Assembly (NCBI GenBank): GCA_021803655.1
Contig: JAJZLK010000064.1
Location: 1-37,313 of the forward strand
Length of the DNA: 37,313 nt
DNA from: Thermoplasmata archaeon
GTDB taxonomy: Archaea > Thermoplasmatota > Thermoplasmata > Thermoplasmatales > Thermoplasmataceae
Direction: 5' to 3'
The translations under genes and the position numbers were made by a program. Shown piece by piece: positions 168 through 7,711 of the stretch; the first letter of the stretch is position 1, and each line of letters begins with the position of its first letter. Below the pieces are notes generated by a model. The model ran no database searches, was not told the origin of the DNA, and saw nothing but the letters and a program-made list of their open reading frames with translations.

Positions 168-1553
168 CTAAAGCAGTTCACAATTAATGTGGCTTATGCC
201 ATTGTGTTCGGAAAGTTTCAGTCCCTCTGTTTCGACAAAGTTCCTGAAGTCAAGCGCTGTTCTTCTTCCAGCGTCACGGGAAAAGAAAAATGCGCCAGTT
301 CTCCGTCTCACCACATCTTCCTCGGTGATCGCGCACTGCTCGAAAACTGCAGACCTGATCGGATGTTTGCGATCCAGATCCAGTCTCCCAATCACCGGGA
401 GATTCCTGGTGCTGGCCTTCAGCGAAAGCTTGGAAAGAGCAGATCTCGCGACAGCAGCCGAAACCCTGCGGTAATCAGTAACTTTCCCTCCGATCACGGA
501 AAGGTATCTCCCGCTGTCAATTATCCTGAAGTCTCTCGACATCTTTCCCGGGTTATCTCCTCTGCCGAAAAGGGATCTTATTCCAGCATATTCTGAAATT
601 ACCTTTTCCCTGGTGAATGCAGGAAACAGTGGACGAAGACTCTCGACGATGTACTGCCTCTCCTTCTCTGTCACGATGAAATCATCAGGGTCTTCGGTCA
701 GGTCGTCGGTCGTTCCGACTATTACAACCTCCCCTCTCGGTATCAGGAAAAGCTGTCTTCTGTCTATTGCGGACCTGAACACAACCGCACTGTCTCCCTT
801 GAAAAGTTCTCCCGGAAATATAAGGTGAATGCCCTTGCTCATCTTCATTCTGTCCCTGTAGTCTTCAAGTCCCGGAATAATGTCCCTTGCCCAGCTTCCC
901 GCGCAGTTAATCACGAGACCTGCCTTCACCCGATAGTTCTGTCCAGTTAATACGTCGGTGAGGGTGAAGGTTCCTGCATTCTCAGATTCAGGCCTGTTGA
1001 AAGCTACGTAATTCAGGCACACCGCCCCGCGTGATCTCGCATCAATAATATTGTGCAGCGTGAGAACGGCATCATCTGTCACGGCATCCTTATACCTGAA
1101 GTAACCCCTGATCCATTCCGGGAACTCACCCTTGTTCCTGGAATACCTCTGAGCAGAGCCTCCTCCCAGAATCCTGTAAAGCAGAAGGCCCATGGATATC
1201 TGGTATCTTGGCCACATCCCTTTTCCTATGAGTATGGTGAAGTCTAGTTCCTTCACGATGGCCGTGTTCCTGAGGAGATAATTCCTCTCCTTCAGCAGGC
1301 TCCTTGTGAGGCGAATTCTCCCCTGGGAGAGATACCTCAATCCCCCATGGATCATCTTCGACGAACCTGAGCTTGTTCCCGAGGCAAAATCTCCTTTGTC
1401 AACGAGAAGTACCTGGACGCCGCACTGGGAAAGGGTGTTTGCCACCCCGGCTCCAATTATTCCGCCGCCTATGACTAGTACAGGGAATTCCCTGCCATCC
1501 AGGGTCTCCAGATCCTTCCTGCGCGTCCTGTAGGAAAACTCATCCATCTTCAT
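168..1553 (-). CDS. glpA: FAD-dependent glycerol-3-phosphate dehydrogenase (GlpA/GlpD-like)
   Basis: A 461-residue flavoprotein of the DAO/GlpA-GlpD family, expected to oxidise sn-glycerol-3-phosphate to dihydroxyacetone phosphate and pass electrons to a quinone or other acceptor. The N-terminal dinucleotide motif GGGIIGAG is at residues 29-36. It is followed by the family hallmark GTSSGSSKMIHGGLRYL (FAD/substrate region). Near the C-terminus EEDVVRRRTGAFF plus RDAGRRTA matches the DAO C-terminal domain. At 461 residues it is shorter than bacterial GlpA/GlpD (about 500-550) and lacks an extra tail. The ATG overlaps the stop of the AGPS-like gene in an ATGA, and GGAGATGA just upstream is a good Shine-Dalgarno sequence, so the two are translationally coupled. 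In archaea that make G1P lipids, such an enzyme normally serves glycerol catabolism; the neighbours suggest a lipid link instead. The family call is firm; the exact acceptor and role are inferred. Confidence 0.88.
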   Translation of the reverse strand: MKMDEFSYRTRRKDLETLDGREFPVLVIGGGIIGAGVANTLSQCGVQVLLVDKGDFASGTSSGSSKMIHGGLRYLSQGRIRLTRSLLKERNYLLRNTAIVKELDFTILIGKGMWPRYQISMGLLLYRILGGGSAQRYSRNKGEFPEWIRGYFRYKDAVTDDAVLTLHNIIDARSRGAVCLNYVAFNRPESENAGTFTLTDVLTGQNYRVKAGLVINCAGSWARDIIPGLEDYRDRMKMSKGIHLIFPGELFKGDSAVVFRSAIDRRQLFLIPRGEVVIVGTTDDLTEDPDDFIVTEKERQYIVESLRPLFPAFTREKVISEYAGIRSLFGRGDNPGKMSRDFRIIDSGRYLSVIGGKVTDYRRVSAAVARSALSKLSLKASTRNLPVIGRLDLDRKHPIRSAVFEQCAITEEDVVRRRTGAFFFSRDAGRRTALDFRNFVETEGLKLSEHNGISHINCELL

Positions 1554-3136
1554 TCATCTCCCAGTACAGGGTCCTCAACCAGCTGGAGCAGAGATCTCTT
1601 TCCTCCGTCAAGCATTGGGAGGAAATCCGTGCCTATTCCATGATGATGGGAGACAGACCCTCCATGTTCAAGGAACCCTCTCACCATAGCATCACGAATT
1701 ATCCTGAGGTTGTGTGAACCCCTGTCTGCAGGGGATGTTATCATGAAGGTAAAATATATCGCAGCACCGGTTCTGTACAGATGGGAAATATGGGCCATTA
1801 TAACTCCCTCTATTCCCAGCTCCCTGCATTTTCCGTTGAACAGTGATATGGTGGATTCATGAATCTTGACTATCCGGTCCCAGGGCGATGAGGTCTCAAG
1901 CGTATCCGGTATCAACCCCATTCTCCACAGCCCGTTCCCGATGTCAGGCCTCCCGAATCTTTCCTTCTCCCACTTTCTTGCCACGGTCGAACCAGATCGA
2001 ACCGCCCCATGCACGGCTCTCCAGGAATGGCGGTCATTGCTGACCACTATCATCAATGATCCACTGTCTTCCCGGATCTTCCTGATCCTCATCCAGGAAA
2101 GGAGCAGTTTCTTCGAGGTGCTGTTTCCTGATGCACTCAACATGAACTTCGTCTCCGTGCGATCAGAAAGCCTCACTACCGCTGGGAACCCAGTTCTGGC
2201 CGAGAGAAACTTTACACCATCCCTGAAGCTCCTGAAGAAGAAGCTGGAATAATATCTCCTCCCGGGCAGTCTATCTACTTTCAACCAGGCATCTCCGATC
2301 AGTCCGGTCCTTCCTTCTCCGCCAATTGCCAGGCTTTTCGCCGTGATGCCGGAGGACTCCCTCGGGGATGCACTGTCAGTGACCTTGAAATCGGATCTGT
2401 AGAGAGTTACTCCCAGGACAATGTCTTCGATGTCTCCATACTGGTTTGACTCCTGTCCCGATGCCCTGGTTGAGATCCATCCGCCAACCGTGGACTGCAG
2501 CAGGGACTCTGGGAAGTGCCCAAGAGTAAGTCCCATTGCGTTCAGTGATCTCTCCAGTTCCCCTCCCCTTAGCCCGGGCCCGGCTCTTGCTATATATCCG
2601 TCAACTTCGAGGTTCCTGAGTCTTGACACGTCAATCAGGGCCCTTTTCTTTGCAGAAACTCTCCTGAAGCCGCCAGTGACACCGGTTCCCCCGCCCCTGA
2701 CCACTGCTCTGATTCCGATCTTCTTCAGAGAAGGGAGCAGGTTGTCAAGATCTGAATAATCCGGATAGAGAACAGCATCAACCGTCAACGAAAGATTATC
2801 TTCTCTTGCCTCCATGATTTCAAGACTTGATTTCCCAATCGATGCAGCCAGCCGCACCTTGGGCACGACGGAAATCTTTTCCCGATCAAGCACGGCTTCA
2901 AGTTTCTGTAACAGATTACTTCCGGGAAGATCCTGAACCGTGATCCTGCCGTTCCACGAGGGGAGTTGATCTATTCCGGGGATATACGAACGCAGGAGTT
3001 GCTTGACATTTTCCAGGGCAGATTTATCATGAGATTCTCCCACCAGTTCTATCTCATCGCTGCTCAAGATCACCACACCTCCATGTCCTCTCGAGGAATA
3101 TGATGGGTGAAGGAAAATGTTCCATGGTGCTGGCAC
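1550..3136 (-). CDS. FAD-linked oxidase, alkylglycerone-phosphate synthase (AGPS)-like
   Basis: A 528-residue protein of the FAD_binding_4 (VAO/PCMH) superfamily. RGGGTGVTGG (about 147-156) is the FAD pyrophosphate loop. LGHFPESLLQSTVGGW (about 205-220) and STRASG (222-227), then YGDIEDIV, closely follow the mammalian and bacterial AGPS pattern (GHxPDSLEFSTVGGW...TRASG...YGNIEDLV). The C-terminus has an AIYFTF segment with the Tyr expected near the AGPS catalytic site, and the triple histidine in SHHHGIG at about 497-499, another AGPS hallmark. AGPS exchanges the acyl chain of acyl-dihydroxyacetone phosphate for an alkyl chain from a fatty alcohol. Here the substrate is unknown. The C-terminal cap is shorter than in eukaryotic AGPS, with only about 29 residues after HHH. 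It starts with GTG and lies 81 bases after the lipid kinase gene. Alternatives are a D-lactate/glycolate oxidase-type enzyme, but the HHH and STRASG motifs favour the AGPS branch. Confidence 0.82.
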   Translation of the reverse strand: MPAPWNIFLHPSYSSRGHGGVVILSSDEIELVGESHDKSALENVKQLLRSYIPGIDQLPSWNGRITVQDLPGSNLLQKLEAVLDREKISVVPKVRLAASIGKSSLEIMEAREDNLSLTVDAVLYPDYSDLDNLLPSLKKIGIRAVVRGGGTGVTGGFRRVSAKKRALIDVSRLRNLEVDGYIARAGPGLRGGELERSLNAMGLTLGHFPESLLQSTVGGWISTRASGQESNQYGDIEDIVLGVTLYRSDFKVTDSASPRESSGITAKSLAIGGEGRTGLIGDAWLKVDRLPGRRYYSSFFFRSFRDGVKFLSARTGFPAVVRLSDRTETKFMLSASGNSTSKKLLLSWMRIRKIREDSGSLMIVVSNDRHSWRAVHGAVRSGSTVARKWEKERFGRPDIGNGLWRMGLIPDTLETSSPWDRIVKIHESTISLFNGKCRELGIEGVIMAHISHLYRTGAAIYFTFMITSPADRGSHNLRIIRDAMVRGFLEHGGSVSHHHGIGTDFLPMLDGGKRSLLQLVEDPVLGDE

Positions 3137-3217: not shown

Positions 3218-4198
3218 TCAGGCATCCGCATTCCGGGATGATTCCGGTTTCCCGACCGACTCAGCAGTCAGAACCCTGATGGATCTGGGCACGATCTCTA
3301 TGGAGATAGGGGTATATCCCAGGAATTCTCCATCTGCCTCAACGGGAGCCGGATCACCGGCCACTTTCAGGCGATCTGTGCGGAAATTGATCACCCTGTT
3401 CATGTCCACGTACCTGCCTGTTCCAAGTTTGCCAAAACTCATGATAAGCCTTGTCCTTGAGATCTTCTTTATAAGATGAATGTCAAGAAGACCGTCGTCA
3501 AGTACCGAGTCCGGTGAGGCAAGCATTCCTCCGCCGAAGAATCTTCCGTTGGCAATCACCATCTCAATGCTCCTTACAGCCCCGGTGAACTGCACGGACT
3601 CAATCTGCAGGTTGTATGACTTCAGCCCTGGAAGTTCCCTCATGACAGATGACGTGAACGGATTCCCTTTTCTCCTCGCAAGGGAGTTAACCCTCTTCAT
3701 GACTCCAGCACCAAAGCCTATTTCCATAATGTTTGCGAAATACCTTTCGCTACCGGAAAAAGTGGTCTTCACGCAGTCAAGAAGTGCAAACCTCCCGGAA
3801 TGAAACGCCGATATAATGGAATCAGCACTTAGTTTTCCTGTACTTTTAAGATAATCAGAACCTGTCCCACCGAGGAAGGGAACCAGGACTTTGTCGCTTC
3901 CCATGATGCCGTTCGCCACTTCGTTTATTGTTCCGTCACCGCCAAGAACAACTATCCAGGAACCATCCGGCAGGCTGCGGGATATCTCCGTGGCGTGACC
4001 GGACCGCTCCGTCGGGATCAATACCGGATCAAGAGGTTTCAATGCGGCCAATACTGCGTTTTCTGCAGCCATGGTATTTGAACCGGCTCTCCTGTTGGAG
4101 ATAACAGCAAACTCAGGAATATCGGTCACCTCCACGAAATGTCTGGAAGTTGTCCAGATCCAGTTTAACCACGTCTCCTCAGCAGGTATGGCAGCCAT
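3218..4198 (-). CDS. Diacylglycerol kinase-catalytic-domain lipid kinase (DgkB/YegS-like)
   Basis: Encodes up to 326 residues. VVLGGDGTINEVANG (about 83-97) is the nucleotide-binding signature of the DAGK catalytic domain. FLGGTGSDYLKSTG (about 108-121) is the second motif (GGTxNDxA in bacterial members), and the C-terminal half has the typical GGGM...DDGLLDIHLI and VEADGE elements. Members phosphorylate diacylglycerol, other neutral lipids or sphingoid bases with ATP. Acting after a phospholipase C-like gene, it could re-phosphorylate the diradylglycerol released. The start is uncertain. The ATG at 4198 overlaps the phosphoesterase gene by 34 bases and adds about 27 residues before the domain. 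A perfect Shine-Dalgarno GGAGGTGA (4126-4133) sits 5 bases before an in-frame ATT at 4120 that would start exactly at the domain; GTG codons at 4135 and 4129 are further options. Confidence 0.85.
   Translation of the reverse strand: MAAIPAEETWLNWIWTTSRHFVEVTDIPEFAVISNRRAGSNTMAAENAVLAALKPLDPVLIPTERSGHATEISRSLPDGSWIVVLGGDGTINEVANGIMGSDKVLVPFLGGTGSDYLKSTGKLSADSIISAFHSGRFALLDCVKTTFSGSERYFANIMEIGFGAGVMKRVNSLARRKGNPFTSSVMRELPGLKSYNLQIESVQFTGAVRSIEMVIANGRFFGGGMLASPDSVLDDGLLDIHLIKKISRTRLIMSFGKLGTGRYVDMNRVINFRTDRLKVAGDPAPVEADGEFLGYTPISIEIVPRSIRVLTAESVGKPESSRNADA
4126..4133 (-). promoter_or_regulatory. Canonical Shine-Dalgarno inside the lipid kinase 5' end
   Basis: On the minus strand this is GGAGGTGA, complementary to the archaeal 16S rRNA 3' end. 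The codon five bases downstream is ATT at 4118-4120, in frame with the kinase and directly before PEFAVISNRR, where the conserved domain begins. It may mark a non-AUG start, or only regulate coupling after the overlapping phosphoesterase stop at 4165. Confidence 0.4.
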
Positions 4199-5625
4199 AG
4201 GGACGATGCTACTGCAGTGACCAATATGAGGGCAATGGTCAGGTCGTTCTCATATAATGGAGTGAAGGAACTGTTTGACCTTACAAACAGGGAGGAGTTG
4301 ATCGATGAAAGGGAAAAGCTGGAATGTCCACTCTCGCTGTAAGGAAGACTAGTAACCGGGATCTGGAAATCCACAGGGAAAATTGGTGAAAAATTCATTC
4401 CGTGTGTGGAGCCGGCGGTGAAAACGATGTTATCAGGGATCGGAATCCCGTAACTCGTGAGGTTGATTGGCGTTCTTCCGATGAACCCCTGCGAATATGG
4501 ATGGTTGAAGTCAAACATGTCCAGCGCGATGTTGGAGCCTGAAACGAAACTGTTCAGTGCAGGGAGATTCCAGTTGTAGTCAATGAAGGCTGGAATAGAA
4601 CCCTGATCGAGAACCGTTGAAGATATGTAGTTCTCCTTAGCAAAGGGAGATATGAGCAGGAACGGCACTCTCTGTCCAAGTTGCATGCCGTTGAAAACTG
4701 GAGGAGCAACCTGGTCATAGTAACCTCCCCCCTCATCATAGGTGATGAAGATCGCAGTTGAATTCCACTCCGGACTGTGCATTACCAGGTTCACAATGTA
4801 CATCATCCACATCTCTCCGGTGAGAATGCTGTTTGGGGGCCCCTGGCTGTAATATCCATGGCTGTCGCTGCCCACTGGCATAACCCAGCTCACGGAAGGA
4901 AGAGTGTTGTTCCGGACACTTCCCGCGAAATTCTCCCAGCTTCCAATGTTGGATGAGTACTGGTTTATGCCCTGGAAGAAGTTGAGGGGGGCGTATCTGT
5001 CTGATTTACTGAGCAGATAGTAATTCCATGACACAGAATAATGGCTCAGTTCTCCAAACATGGACTGCGTTACCGGAATATATGGAGGTGGACCGTAATC
5101 ATTCATGACAGGAGAGAATCCGGCAAGGTTATACAGCCTGTTTGGCGTAGTTTCCGTCATCATGCTGTATGCTGACTGGTCCATCGCATACTGTTCGGCC
5201 AGTATCCATTCGGGGGCAGCCTGGGAAGAGGTAAAGTACGTCATGGACTGAGGTCCTGAACCATTGACGAAGCCATTCATCTGCCCGTTATTCCAGTCAA
5301 TGTGATATGCAGTATATCCCTCCCCGGGGTCAACCGTGGAGAAGGTGCCGGTGGGAACACGGTGCAATTCGCCATGATTTCCGGGCGTGAGCAGGTTTAC
5401 AGGTCTGGATATATTTGTCTCCAGATACTTCAGCGAAGTATTGTTGTCTCTAGGGTAAGCACCGAATAAGTTGTCGAAACTGTGGTTTTCCATCATTATT
5501 TCAATTACGTGCTTAATTGGTGTCCTTGTGTTGCTGTTGGGGTTAACTGATCCAGCACTGGCGAGCGGAAGGAAGGTGATCAGGAGAAGTATAGTTACCA
5601 CCAGAACAGTTGCAGTACGGATCAA
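4165..5625 (-). CDS. Surface phosphoesterase of the phospholipase C / acid phosphatase family
   Basis: A 486-residue protein of the phosphoesterase family (PF04185 type), which includes bacterial non-haemolytic phospholipases C and AcpA acid phosphatases. Residues 1-24 form a signal peptide (ending LPLASAG). HVIEIMMENHSFDNLFG (about 39-55) is the family's N-terminal metal/active-site motif, YDEGGGYYD (296-304) is the second conserved acidic motif, and GQRVPFLLISPFA follows at about 318. A hydrophobic helix and RRRG close the protein, so it is probably anchored with the enzyme outside. Several NxS/T sites fit surface glycosylation. It starts with TTG at 5625, two bases after the stop of the upstream membrane protein gene, with GGAGGAGGAGA as ribosome binding site. 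The expected role is hydrolysis of phospholipids or phosphomonoesters outside the cell; phospholipase C versus phosphatase activity cannot be decided here. Confidence 0.83.
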   Translation of the reverse strand: MIRTATVLVVTILLLITFLPLASAGSVNPNSNTRTPIKHVIEIMMENHSFDNLFGAYPRDNNTSLKYLETNISRPVNLLTPGNHGELHRVPTGTFSTVDPGEGYTAYHIDWNNGQMNGFVNGSGPQSMTYFTSSQAAPEWILAEQYAMDQSAYSMMTETTPNRLYNLAGFSPVMNDYGPPPYIPVTQSMFGELSHYSVSWNYYLLSKSDRYAPLNFFQGINQYSSNIGSWENFAGSVRNNTLPSVSWVMPVGSDSHGYYSQGPPNSILTGEMWMMYIVNLVMHSPEWNSTAIFITYDEGGGYYDQVAPPVFNGMQLGQRVPFLLISPFAKENYISSTVLDQGSIPAFIDYNWNLPALNSFVSGSNIALDMFDFNHPYSQGFIGRTPINLTSYGIPIPDNIVFTAGSTHGMNFSPIFPVDFQIPVTSLPYSESGHSSFSLSSINSSLFVRSNSSFTPLYENDLTIALILVTAVASSLWLPYLLRRRG

Positions 5626-5627
5626 CC

Positions 5628-6215
5628 TCAGTCTCCTCCTCCTACTCCATGAAAGTTTCCATGATCAAGCATTGTCCCTGCAACTGCACACACAGTGCAC
5701 ACGGAAAGAATCCCCATGAGAACCAGAGGCAGCTGGGACTGTCCCATCTTCTCGTATATTACGGCTATTATAATGGCAGATACAACAGGGAGAATCCCTA
5801 TGGCGGCTGACTTTACCAGAATATATCTCTGGAACATTTCAGGAACTCCATATCTGGAATACTCTGACGTAAGCAGCGTAAGTGCCCCTGCAGAGAGAAA
5901 AGCATATTCAAACCCATTCAAAGGGAGCAGGACTTTATCATTGTATACTGAGTAAAAGAGGAATGGGACCGTAAACAGGAAGATAGCTATGGAAACCGGT
6001 CGCGCATAAACCTTCCCTGTCAGGATTCCTCCTGCAATTGAGAACGCAATTCCGCCAATAGCAAAGCCGGGGATAAGATAGGTTTCCTGTGATGCTTCCC
6101 CTACCAGATCAAGGGAACCGGAGAGGAAAAAAATTACCAGTGGAACAAGTCCTATAGTGATCAGAGAGAAGATTGTATAAACGGCATGGCCAATCTTTCG
6201 GGAAATGTGTTCCAC
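5628..6215 (-). CDS. Multi-pass membrane protein, first gene of the lipid cluster
   Basis: Encodes 195 residues with about five or six hydrophobic segments (roughly 12-32, 43-65, 72-90, 98-117, 133-153, 160-181) and a short Gly/Asp/His-rich tail. I do not recognise the family. It begins with GTG at 6215. A TATA-like CTTTATTAT lies about 26 bases upstream, so the transcript should start at or next to the GTG and be leaderless. Its stop codon is two bases from the start of the phosphoesterase gene, making it the promoter-proximal member of a five-gene run ending with glpA. Position suggests a partner in transport or membrane handling of lipids, but nothing in the sequence proves it. Confidence 0.65.
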   Translation of the reverse strand: MEHISRKIGHAVYTIFSLITIGLVPLVIFFLSGSLDLVGEASQETYLIPGFAIGGIAFSIAGGILTGKVYARPVSIAIFLFTVPFLFYSVYNDKVLLPLNGFEYAFLSAGALTLLTSEYSRYGVPEMFQRYILVKSAAIGILPVVSAIIIAVIYEKMGQSQLPLVLMGILSVCTVCAVAGTMLDHGNFHGVGGGD

Positions 6216-6236
6216 AACTGTCTACGAATTATTCCC

Positions 6237-6245
6237 ATAATAAAG
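6237..6245 (-). promoter_or_regulatory. TATA-like promoter of the lipid cluster
   Basis: Minus-strand CTTTATTAT centred about 26 bases before the GTG at 6215. It probably drives a leaderless transcript through the five minus-strand genes. Confidence 0.55.
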
Positions 6246-6297
6246 TTTCGAACAACATTTCCCGCAATCTTCCCGTAAGAGGGTTGCATTCTGATTA

Positions 6298-6308
6298 CCT
6301 TTTTATGC
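6298..6308 (+). promoter_or_regulatory. TATA-like promoter of the PadR gene
   Basis: CCTTTTTATGC lies about 58 bases before the padR ATG. A start site 25-27 bases downstream would fall near 6329, inside the palindrome at 6319-6342. Unlike most genes here, this transcript would have a leader of about 30 bases, with GGAAGTGA at 6349-6356 as a weak ribosome binding site. Confidence 0.45.
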
Positions 6309-6318
6309 TCGCATTGCA

Positions 6319-6342
6319 TTCGATATTGATAACGATATCGAA
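6319..6342. promoter_or_regulatory. 24-bp palindrome, probable PadR operator
   Basis: TTCGATAT-TGATAACG-ATATCGAA has perfect 8-bp arms and an 8-base centre. It sits at the predicted transcription start of the PadR gene and about 80-100 bases from the divergent lipid-cluster promoter. That is the expected place for an autoregulatory operator. PadR proteins bind such dyads as dimers. Confidence 0.6.
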
Positions 6343-6360
6343 TAATCAGGAAGTGAAGAA

Positions 6361-6841: not shown

Positions 6842-7711
6842 ATGGATATCAGCGAGATTAGGAAATTCGAGGAGGCAGCGAAGATCGGGAAGAAGGCACT
6901 TGAACTGGCACTGAGTCTCATCGAGCCCGGGGCGTATTTTTACGATGTTGCCGAGAAGACCGAGGCTCTGATACTGGAGAATGGCGGGAAGCCTGCCTTC
7001 CCACTGAACCTTTCGGTGGACAGTGATGCTGCACATTACACCCCGTACACCGGAGACAAGACTAAATTTGCGACGGGCCAGCTCGTCAAGGTGGACATTG
7101 GTGCACAGATCGACGGATACCCTTCAGACAACGCAGCTACCATAGAAGTCGGGAACACAGGAAAACATTCCGACCTTATTGACGCAAGCAGGAACGCTCT
7201 GAATAACGCAATCAGGAATCTCAGGCCGACAATGAAGGTTGGGCAGATTGGGGCTCACATATCGAAGACCATAACGTCATACGGGTTCAAGCCGATCAGG
7301 AATCTGGGCGGGCATGGGATAAGCAGGTATGACCTGCACTCAAGGATATTCATCCCGAATTATGATGACGGCAATGGAAGGACCCTGGAGAAGGATTCCG
7401 TAATTGCAATAGAACCATTTGCCAGCACCGGGACGGGAATGATTCACAACGGTCCCGGAGGGAATATCTACATACTCAGTGGAACTACAAAGCGGGATGA
7501 AGTCATCATGAAGAACTTCAGTACGCTCCCATTTGCCGAGAGATGGCTTTCAAAGGTCGAGAATAACGGACAGGAATACCTGAAGCAGATGATGAAGAAG
7601 AAAGAAGTCTCACAGTTCCCCATACTCAGGGAGCACAGGGGAGTATTCATCTCTCAGGCAGAGCACACAATCCTTGTTAGGGGAGATGAAATCAGGGTTC
7701 TCACTTCCTGA
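6842..7711 (+). CDS. map: Methionine aminopeptidase, type II (archaeal)
   Basis: Encodes 289 residues in the pita-bread fold of M24 peptidases, removing the initiator methionine from nascent proteins in the cytoplasm. The metal ligands can be seen in order: Asp in VKVDIGAQIDGYPSDNA (two Asp), His in GGHGISRYDLH, Glu in AIEPFAS and Glu in QAEHTILV. The N-terminal AHYTPYTGDKT supplies the conserved His of the active site. The length and the inserted helical subdomain fit the archaeal/eukaryotic MetAP2 type. I chose the ATG at 6842 because an in-frame GTG at 6818 overlaps the TATA-like element. The gene ends tail to tail with thymidylate kinase, overlapping by 11 bases. Confidence 0.93.
   Translation: MDISEIRKFEEAAKIGKKALELALSLIEPGAYFYDVAEKTEALILENGGKPAFPLNLSVDSDAAHYTPYTGDKTKFATGQLVKVDIGAQIDGYPSDNAATIEVGNTGKHSDLIDASRNALNNAIRNLRPTMKVGQIGAHISKTITSYGFKPIRNLGGHGISRYDLHSRIFIPNYDDGNGRTLEKDSVIAIEPFASTGTGMIHNGPGGNIYILSGTTKRDEVIMKNFSTLPFAERWLSKVENNGQEYLKQMMKKKEVSQFPILREHRGVFISQAEHTILVRGDEIRVLTS

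Follow-up and report, generated by a model that had tools for sequence, protein, structure and literature searches.

The closest described counterpart of the locus studied here is LmrR of Lactococcus lactis, a winged-helix PadR repressor which, according to the available portions of the reports on it, represses both the ABC exporter genes lmrCD and its own gene (PMC4534193, PMC5428041). For PadR operators in general, the excerpts consulted give a canonical half-site spacing of 8 bp (PMC5428041) and an ATGT/ACAT motif (PMC3506622). LftR has likewise been reported (PMC6457526, consulted in excerpt), and for the archaeal PadR-type protein RosR (VNG0258H) of Halobacterium salinarum, the accessible text describes an imperfect palindrome of 20 bp close to gene starts (PMC4287449). 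No PadR operator was described for Thermoplasmata in the titles and abstract openings surveyed.

The window, that is, the entire stretch of 37,313 nucleotides from a Thermoplasmata archaeon analyzed herein, carries a padR gene that is divergent from a cluster of lipid genes (Table 1). The PF03551 match of the encoded protein spanned residues 30-93 at 52.4 bits, above the cut-off of 27, and an AlphaFold model built on a 3-sequence alignment (mean pLDDT 69.1, with parts of the winged-helix core reaching about 90) predicted the helices, the wing, and the C-terminal helices. When this model, with its pLDDT of 69, was searched by Foldseek, RosR ranked at the top, with PadR, LmrR, and the archaeal PadR-like protein TA0346 of Thermoplasma acidophilum (PDB 3elk, named a putative regulator) also high, at a best E-value of 1.1e-3; a phmmer search of PadR against PDB returned nothing at 1e-3.

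Table 1. Features of the padR locus and the divergent lipid cluster in the window
Feature	Position	Strand	Basis
GlpD-like dehydrogenase of the divergent cluster	168-1553	-	
FAD-linked oxidase of the divergent cluster	1550-3136	-	
YegS/DAGK-like lipid kinase of the divergent cluster	3218-4198	-	
Phosphoesterase of the divergent cluster	4165-5625	-	
195-aa protein, first gene of the divergent cluster, likely a membrane protein	5628..6215	-	Sequence; no Pfam match
Predicted TATA of the leaderless lipid-side promoter, CTTTATTA	6238..6245	-	Read from sequence
Predicted TATA box of the padR promoter, TTTTTATG	6300..6307	+	TATA scoring
Putative operator, 26-bp dyad ATTCGATAT-N8-ATATCGAAT	6318..6343	n/a	Sequence and cross-genome conservation
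Conserved 20-bp core of the operator, CGATATTG-ATAA-CGATATCG	6321-6340		
Putative weak Shine-Dalgarno-like sequence ahead of the padR ATG, GGAAGTGA	6349..6356	+	Read from sequence
PadR-family regulator, 148 aa, predicted winged helix and C-terminal helices	6361..6807	+	PF03551, E 5.5e-14
Type II methionine aminopeptidase, 34 bp past padR	6842..7711	+	TIGR00501, above cut-off

An earlier note on this DNA had described a dyad with 8-bp arms over the predicted padR start site, and such a dyad was indeed present: the inner version TTCGATAT-N8-ATATCGAA (6319-6342) is 24 bp long with two 8-bp arms free of mismatches, and the arms lengthen to 9 bp in the full string ATTCGATAT-TGATAACG-ATATCGAAT, with 11 of 13 pairs being complementary. 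Its center lies 27 bp past the TATA-like box, and hence the dyad would cover the start site of padR, which like all start sites herein is a prediction. A sigma-70 promoter scan gave no match, a result that is uninformative for an archaeon. By shuffle statistics alone, the dyad was only moderately unlikely. Namely, when the 145-bp intergenic region was dinucleotide-shuffled 3000 times, a perfect 9-bp-arm dyad with a spacer of 0-14 arose in 33 of the shuffles; in the window as a whole, six dyads with 9-bp arms were counted, where 30 shuffles gave 2.7 on average. Since such dyads do arise by chance, whether this one is real had to be decided by its conservation.

To this end, a set of 41 genomes was used, consisting of the window's own genome (G000, an archaeal draft of 1.65 Mb in 80 contigs) and 40 relatives, of which G001 and G002 belong to the same genus. 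The PadR protein search yielded 61 matches in 35 genomes, and the upstream regions of 57 of these were scored against the 16 positions of CGATATCG-N4-CGATATCG; the weakest four (G032:C1:390811, G020:C3:131121, G007:C42:70648, and G019:C2:56151) were left out here and from the tree. At least 13 of the 16 positions were matched in 13 of the 57 upstream regions, as compared with a mean of 0.06 in shuffles, and at least 14 in 11 regions versus none in shuffles, a contrast that is partly circular as the consensus was drawn partly from the scored sequences; the G000-free tests described below are not circular. In each of the three genus members, the padR site scored 15/16. The check for conservation in relatives proposed in the earlier note came out in favor of the dyad, and comparison at the sequence level confirmed the palindrome before padR as a genuine feature that related species retain.

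The conserved sites also pointed to a partner gene. Among the 13 PadRs with a site of at least 13/16, three belong to the window's genus; in the other ten cases, padR is the first gene of an operon that also encodes a DrrA/DrrB-type ABC exporter. The site, PadR, ABC ATPase, and ABC-2 permease followed one another in the same direction in G007, G008, G012, G015, and G017, and also in G018, G026, G030, G033, G036, and the TL2-2 contig. In a tree of the 57 PadRs, the window's PadR fell inside a nine-member clade (support 99/93) whose members all carried a site of at least 12/16, with an adjoining exporter in six of the nine; a second, more distant PadR type (G018, G026, G030, G033, and G036) possessed a like site and the same exporter. 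Over the 57 PadRs, the site and the exporter linkage occurred together in 12 cases, the site only in four, the linkage only in five, and neither in 36 (Fisher p 1e-5, kinship ignored); that is, 5 of the 17 exporter-linked PadRs fell below 12/16. Furthermore, the exporter-linked PadRs of G019 and G020, which are outside the 57-row set, had no adjacent model site at E<=1, and this counts against reading the site as an operator of the exporter.

Positions relative to the promoters were assessed with a hand-made TATA scorer, which looks upstream only and has no control set. The best TATA-like octamer was located 22-35 bp before the operator center in 12 of 16 sites, the distance for padR being 27 bp in all three genus members, and 44-61 bp from it in the remaining four (the G000 exporter, G007, G036, and G030). 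Operators of the second PadR type are, as judged by eye, directly followed by a TATA-like stretch, and thus the upstream TATA values are unreliable there. In either arrangement, a dimer bound at the operator would sit on the promoter.

In the window's genus, padR precedes the methionine aminopeptidase gene, and the exporter is encoded on another contig with a site of its own, so that the operator was found at both the padR and the exporter promoters in all three genomes; in G001 and G002, the exporter promoter bears it despite padR being located elsewhere. By consensus, the exporter site of G000, on contig C6, reached only 12/16, and the identity of this exporter to that of G001 was 54%, versus 74% for the exporter of G002. 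Its ATPase passed the drrA model TIGR01188 (346.4 bits, cut-off 312.45); its permease scored 107.2 bits against the drrB model TIGR01247, below the cut-off of 223.05, and passed PF01061 (ABC2_membrane). A position weight matrix (PWM) trained on 14 sites from outside G000, two of them from G001 and two from G002, gave 28.1 for the padR promoter and 25.0 for the promoter of the C6 ABC operon in about 104 kb of G000 sequence, with the next score being 12.4; this sample was non-random, consisting mostly of stretches pre-selected by pattern matches. For a whole-genome scan, a sequence-only model was built from the same 14 sites, and at E<=1 it hit two places only in G000, each on both strands: C6:5421-5440 (0.005) and C23:6318-6342 (0.010). 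As 150 of 644 first-look candidates were scored, under strict filters and with rough E-values, weak further sites may have been missed. The scan for further copies that the earlier note had proposed thus revealed one other strong site, placed before the DrrAB-type exporter. In G001 and G002, the scan recovered one exporter site and one PadR site each, all of them training sites.

Across the 41 genomes, the same scan found 38 distinct sites at E<=0.1, 21 of which (including 13 training sites) had a listed PadR or exporter gene no more than 400 bp away. As for the 25 non-training sites, eight adjoin PadR or the exporter (two in G000), four front another ABC ATPase (G026, G033, G036, and G006, the last preceding another ABC operon), and 13 have no known link to either, three of these 13 having been looked at closely. 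The site in G017:C43 (L098 3014-3033) stands ahead of a methyltransferase gene that is linked neither to PadR nor to the exporter; the G021:C49 and G007:C45 sites fall within ORFs. In L253 (G036), L254 (G026), and L255 (G033), an operator of this type separates the second ABC ATPase gene from a gene that diverges from it, which in G026 and G033 is a polyprenyl synthetase by Pfam.

As far as can be judged from the excerpts on LmrR-LmrCD, the window system appeared to share its essential layout, namely a PadR repressor of predicted winged-helix fold that would combine autoregulation with the control of an ABC exporter: a putative operator, the conserved site, lies at the regulator's own gene, and a predicted one lies at the ABC exporter in all three genus members, along with operon linkage in other genera. 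It differs from LmrR-LmrCD in having an archaeal TATA-type promoter with ATAT-N8-ATAT inside the CGATATCG repeats, and an exporter that is of the DrrAB type and unlinked to padR. With the classical ATGT-N8-ACAT inverted repeat, as given in the excerpts, the window operator shares the half-site spacing of 8 bp alone; the half-site is ATAT instead of ATGT, the conserved CGATATCG arms are longer, and the classical repeat itself is absent. The top fold match RosR is also archaeal, with a palindrome near gene starts in the text available to us, but is a broad oxidative-stress regulator, whereas the window's PadR site was found at two promoters in the genome.

Built on the observed site conservation, site positions, and gene linkage, the reading that we consider likely is that PadR is an LmrR-like autorepressor that also represses the DrrA/DrrB-type exporter through the dyad operator; for binding, repression, ligand, and export, the following course is proposed. 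The window dyad would be the operator of the adjacent PadR, a dimer of which would bind CGATATCG-N4-CGATATCG over the start site and repress padR itself, possibly along with the methionine aminopeptidase gene behind it. Through the second operator on contig C6, PadR would repress the ABC-2 exporter in trans. Binding of a toxic or amphiphilic compound by PadR would then lift repression at both promoters, allowing the exporter to expel the compound in the manner of LmrR-LmrCD. Of the picture drawn in the earlier note, the PadR protein and an operator over its own predicted start site, here seen to be conserved, are supported, and a small-molecule-responsive repressor is likely by analogy. The three genes form one operon in related genera, which was presumably split in the window's genus; as the bootstrap had not settled and the base fork of the nine-member clade was not resolved, this split, as opposed to a joining elsewhere, is what we infer.

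The earlier note had, however, assigned PadR a different target, suggesting that it senses a lipid or a toxic amphiphile and switches the divergent lipid cluster. That the window operator also, or mainly, serves this purpose appears unlikely. Such control would suit the divergent arrangement of padR and the cluster, and each of the three genus members has some lipid genes adjoining an operator-bearing promoter (the cluster beside PadR in G000, three cluster genes beside the exporter in G001, and the oxidase-GlpD genes beside PadR in G002); the second ABC operator similarly faces a divergent gene in G026, G033, and G036. On the lipid side, the predicted TATA (6245-6238, minus strand) precedes the GTG at 6215 by about 26 bp, a distance compatible with the separate leaderless promoter described in the note. 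Against control by PadR, no second dyad copy was present there, as the note had also stated, with a best PWM score of -10.3 at 6150-6300 versus 28.1 for the padR site, and about 89 bp lie between the lipid TATA and the operator center upstream of it. When 13 operator loci of other genera were viewed upstream, 11 (ten of them PadR loci) had an upstream ORF. By eye, none of these ORFs looked like a lipid gene, and Pfam typed three of them as amino-acid permeases (two) and a glycosyltransferase (one). The operator-bearing PadRs of other genera head exporter operons with different upstream neighbors, and in G015, the 195-aa gene and lipid genes share a contig that carries none of its PadRs. In the absence of both a site and a conserved linkage, control of the lipid cluster was set aside as the main role; it is not supported.

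As to the cluster itself, homologues were detected, own genome included, for the FAD-linked oxidase in 23 of 41 genomes (E<=1e-20), for the lipid kinase in 24, and for the 195-aa protein in five, and the oxidase and the kinase were often on one contig in related genomes. An imperfect inverted repeat with a perfect 10-bp core CGGGAAATGT (6196-6219 / 6244-6267) flanks the lipid-side promoter; considered as a signal it was unremarkable, the window holding four 10-bp cores versus a mean of 3.5 in 30 shuffles. Another PadR paralogue, in L116 (G004 C2), resides near phosphoesterase, oxidase, and lipid-kinase genes; it lacks the window-type operator, and its match contains two in-frame stops, but its surroundings speak for a link between PadR and lipid genes.

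A related proposal, that PadR senses an amphiphile and couples membrane-lipid remodeling to export, with operator-adjacent lipid genes being co-induced via the shared divergent promoter, would cover the lipid genes of the three genus members and the polyprenyl synthetase gene in another family, and strikes us as quite improbable. Very improbable, in turn, is that PadR acts as a pure autoregulator with the methionine aminopeptidase as its main target. All three genus members keep the aminopeptidase gene 33-34 bp behind padR, and the two genes are possibly co-transcribed; against this, the exporter promoter carries the site in the same three genomes, and the aminopeptidase was present solely in their loci among 255 compared. 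Finally, that the dyad arose by chance or acts as an RNA element, for which the other 9-bp-arm dyads of the window might speak, is scarcely credible in light of the sequence-specific conservation ahead of PadR and exporter genes across genera.

Taken together, the reading of PadR as an autorepressor and exporter repressor would furnish for Thermoplasmata the explicit operator sequence of a PadR efflux switch and its likely regulon of two promoters, in which the regulator and the exporter appear to have moved apart with one operator type still linking both.
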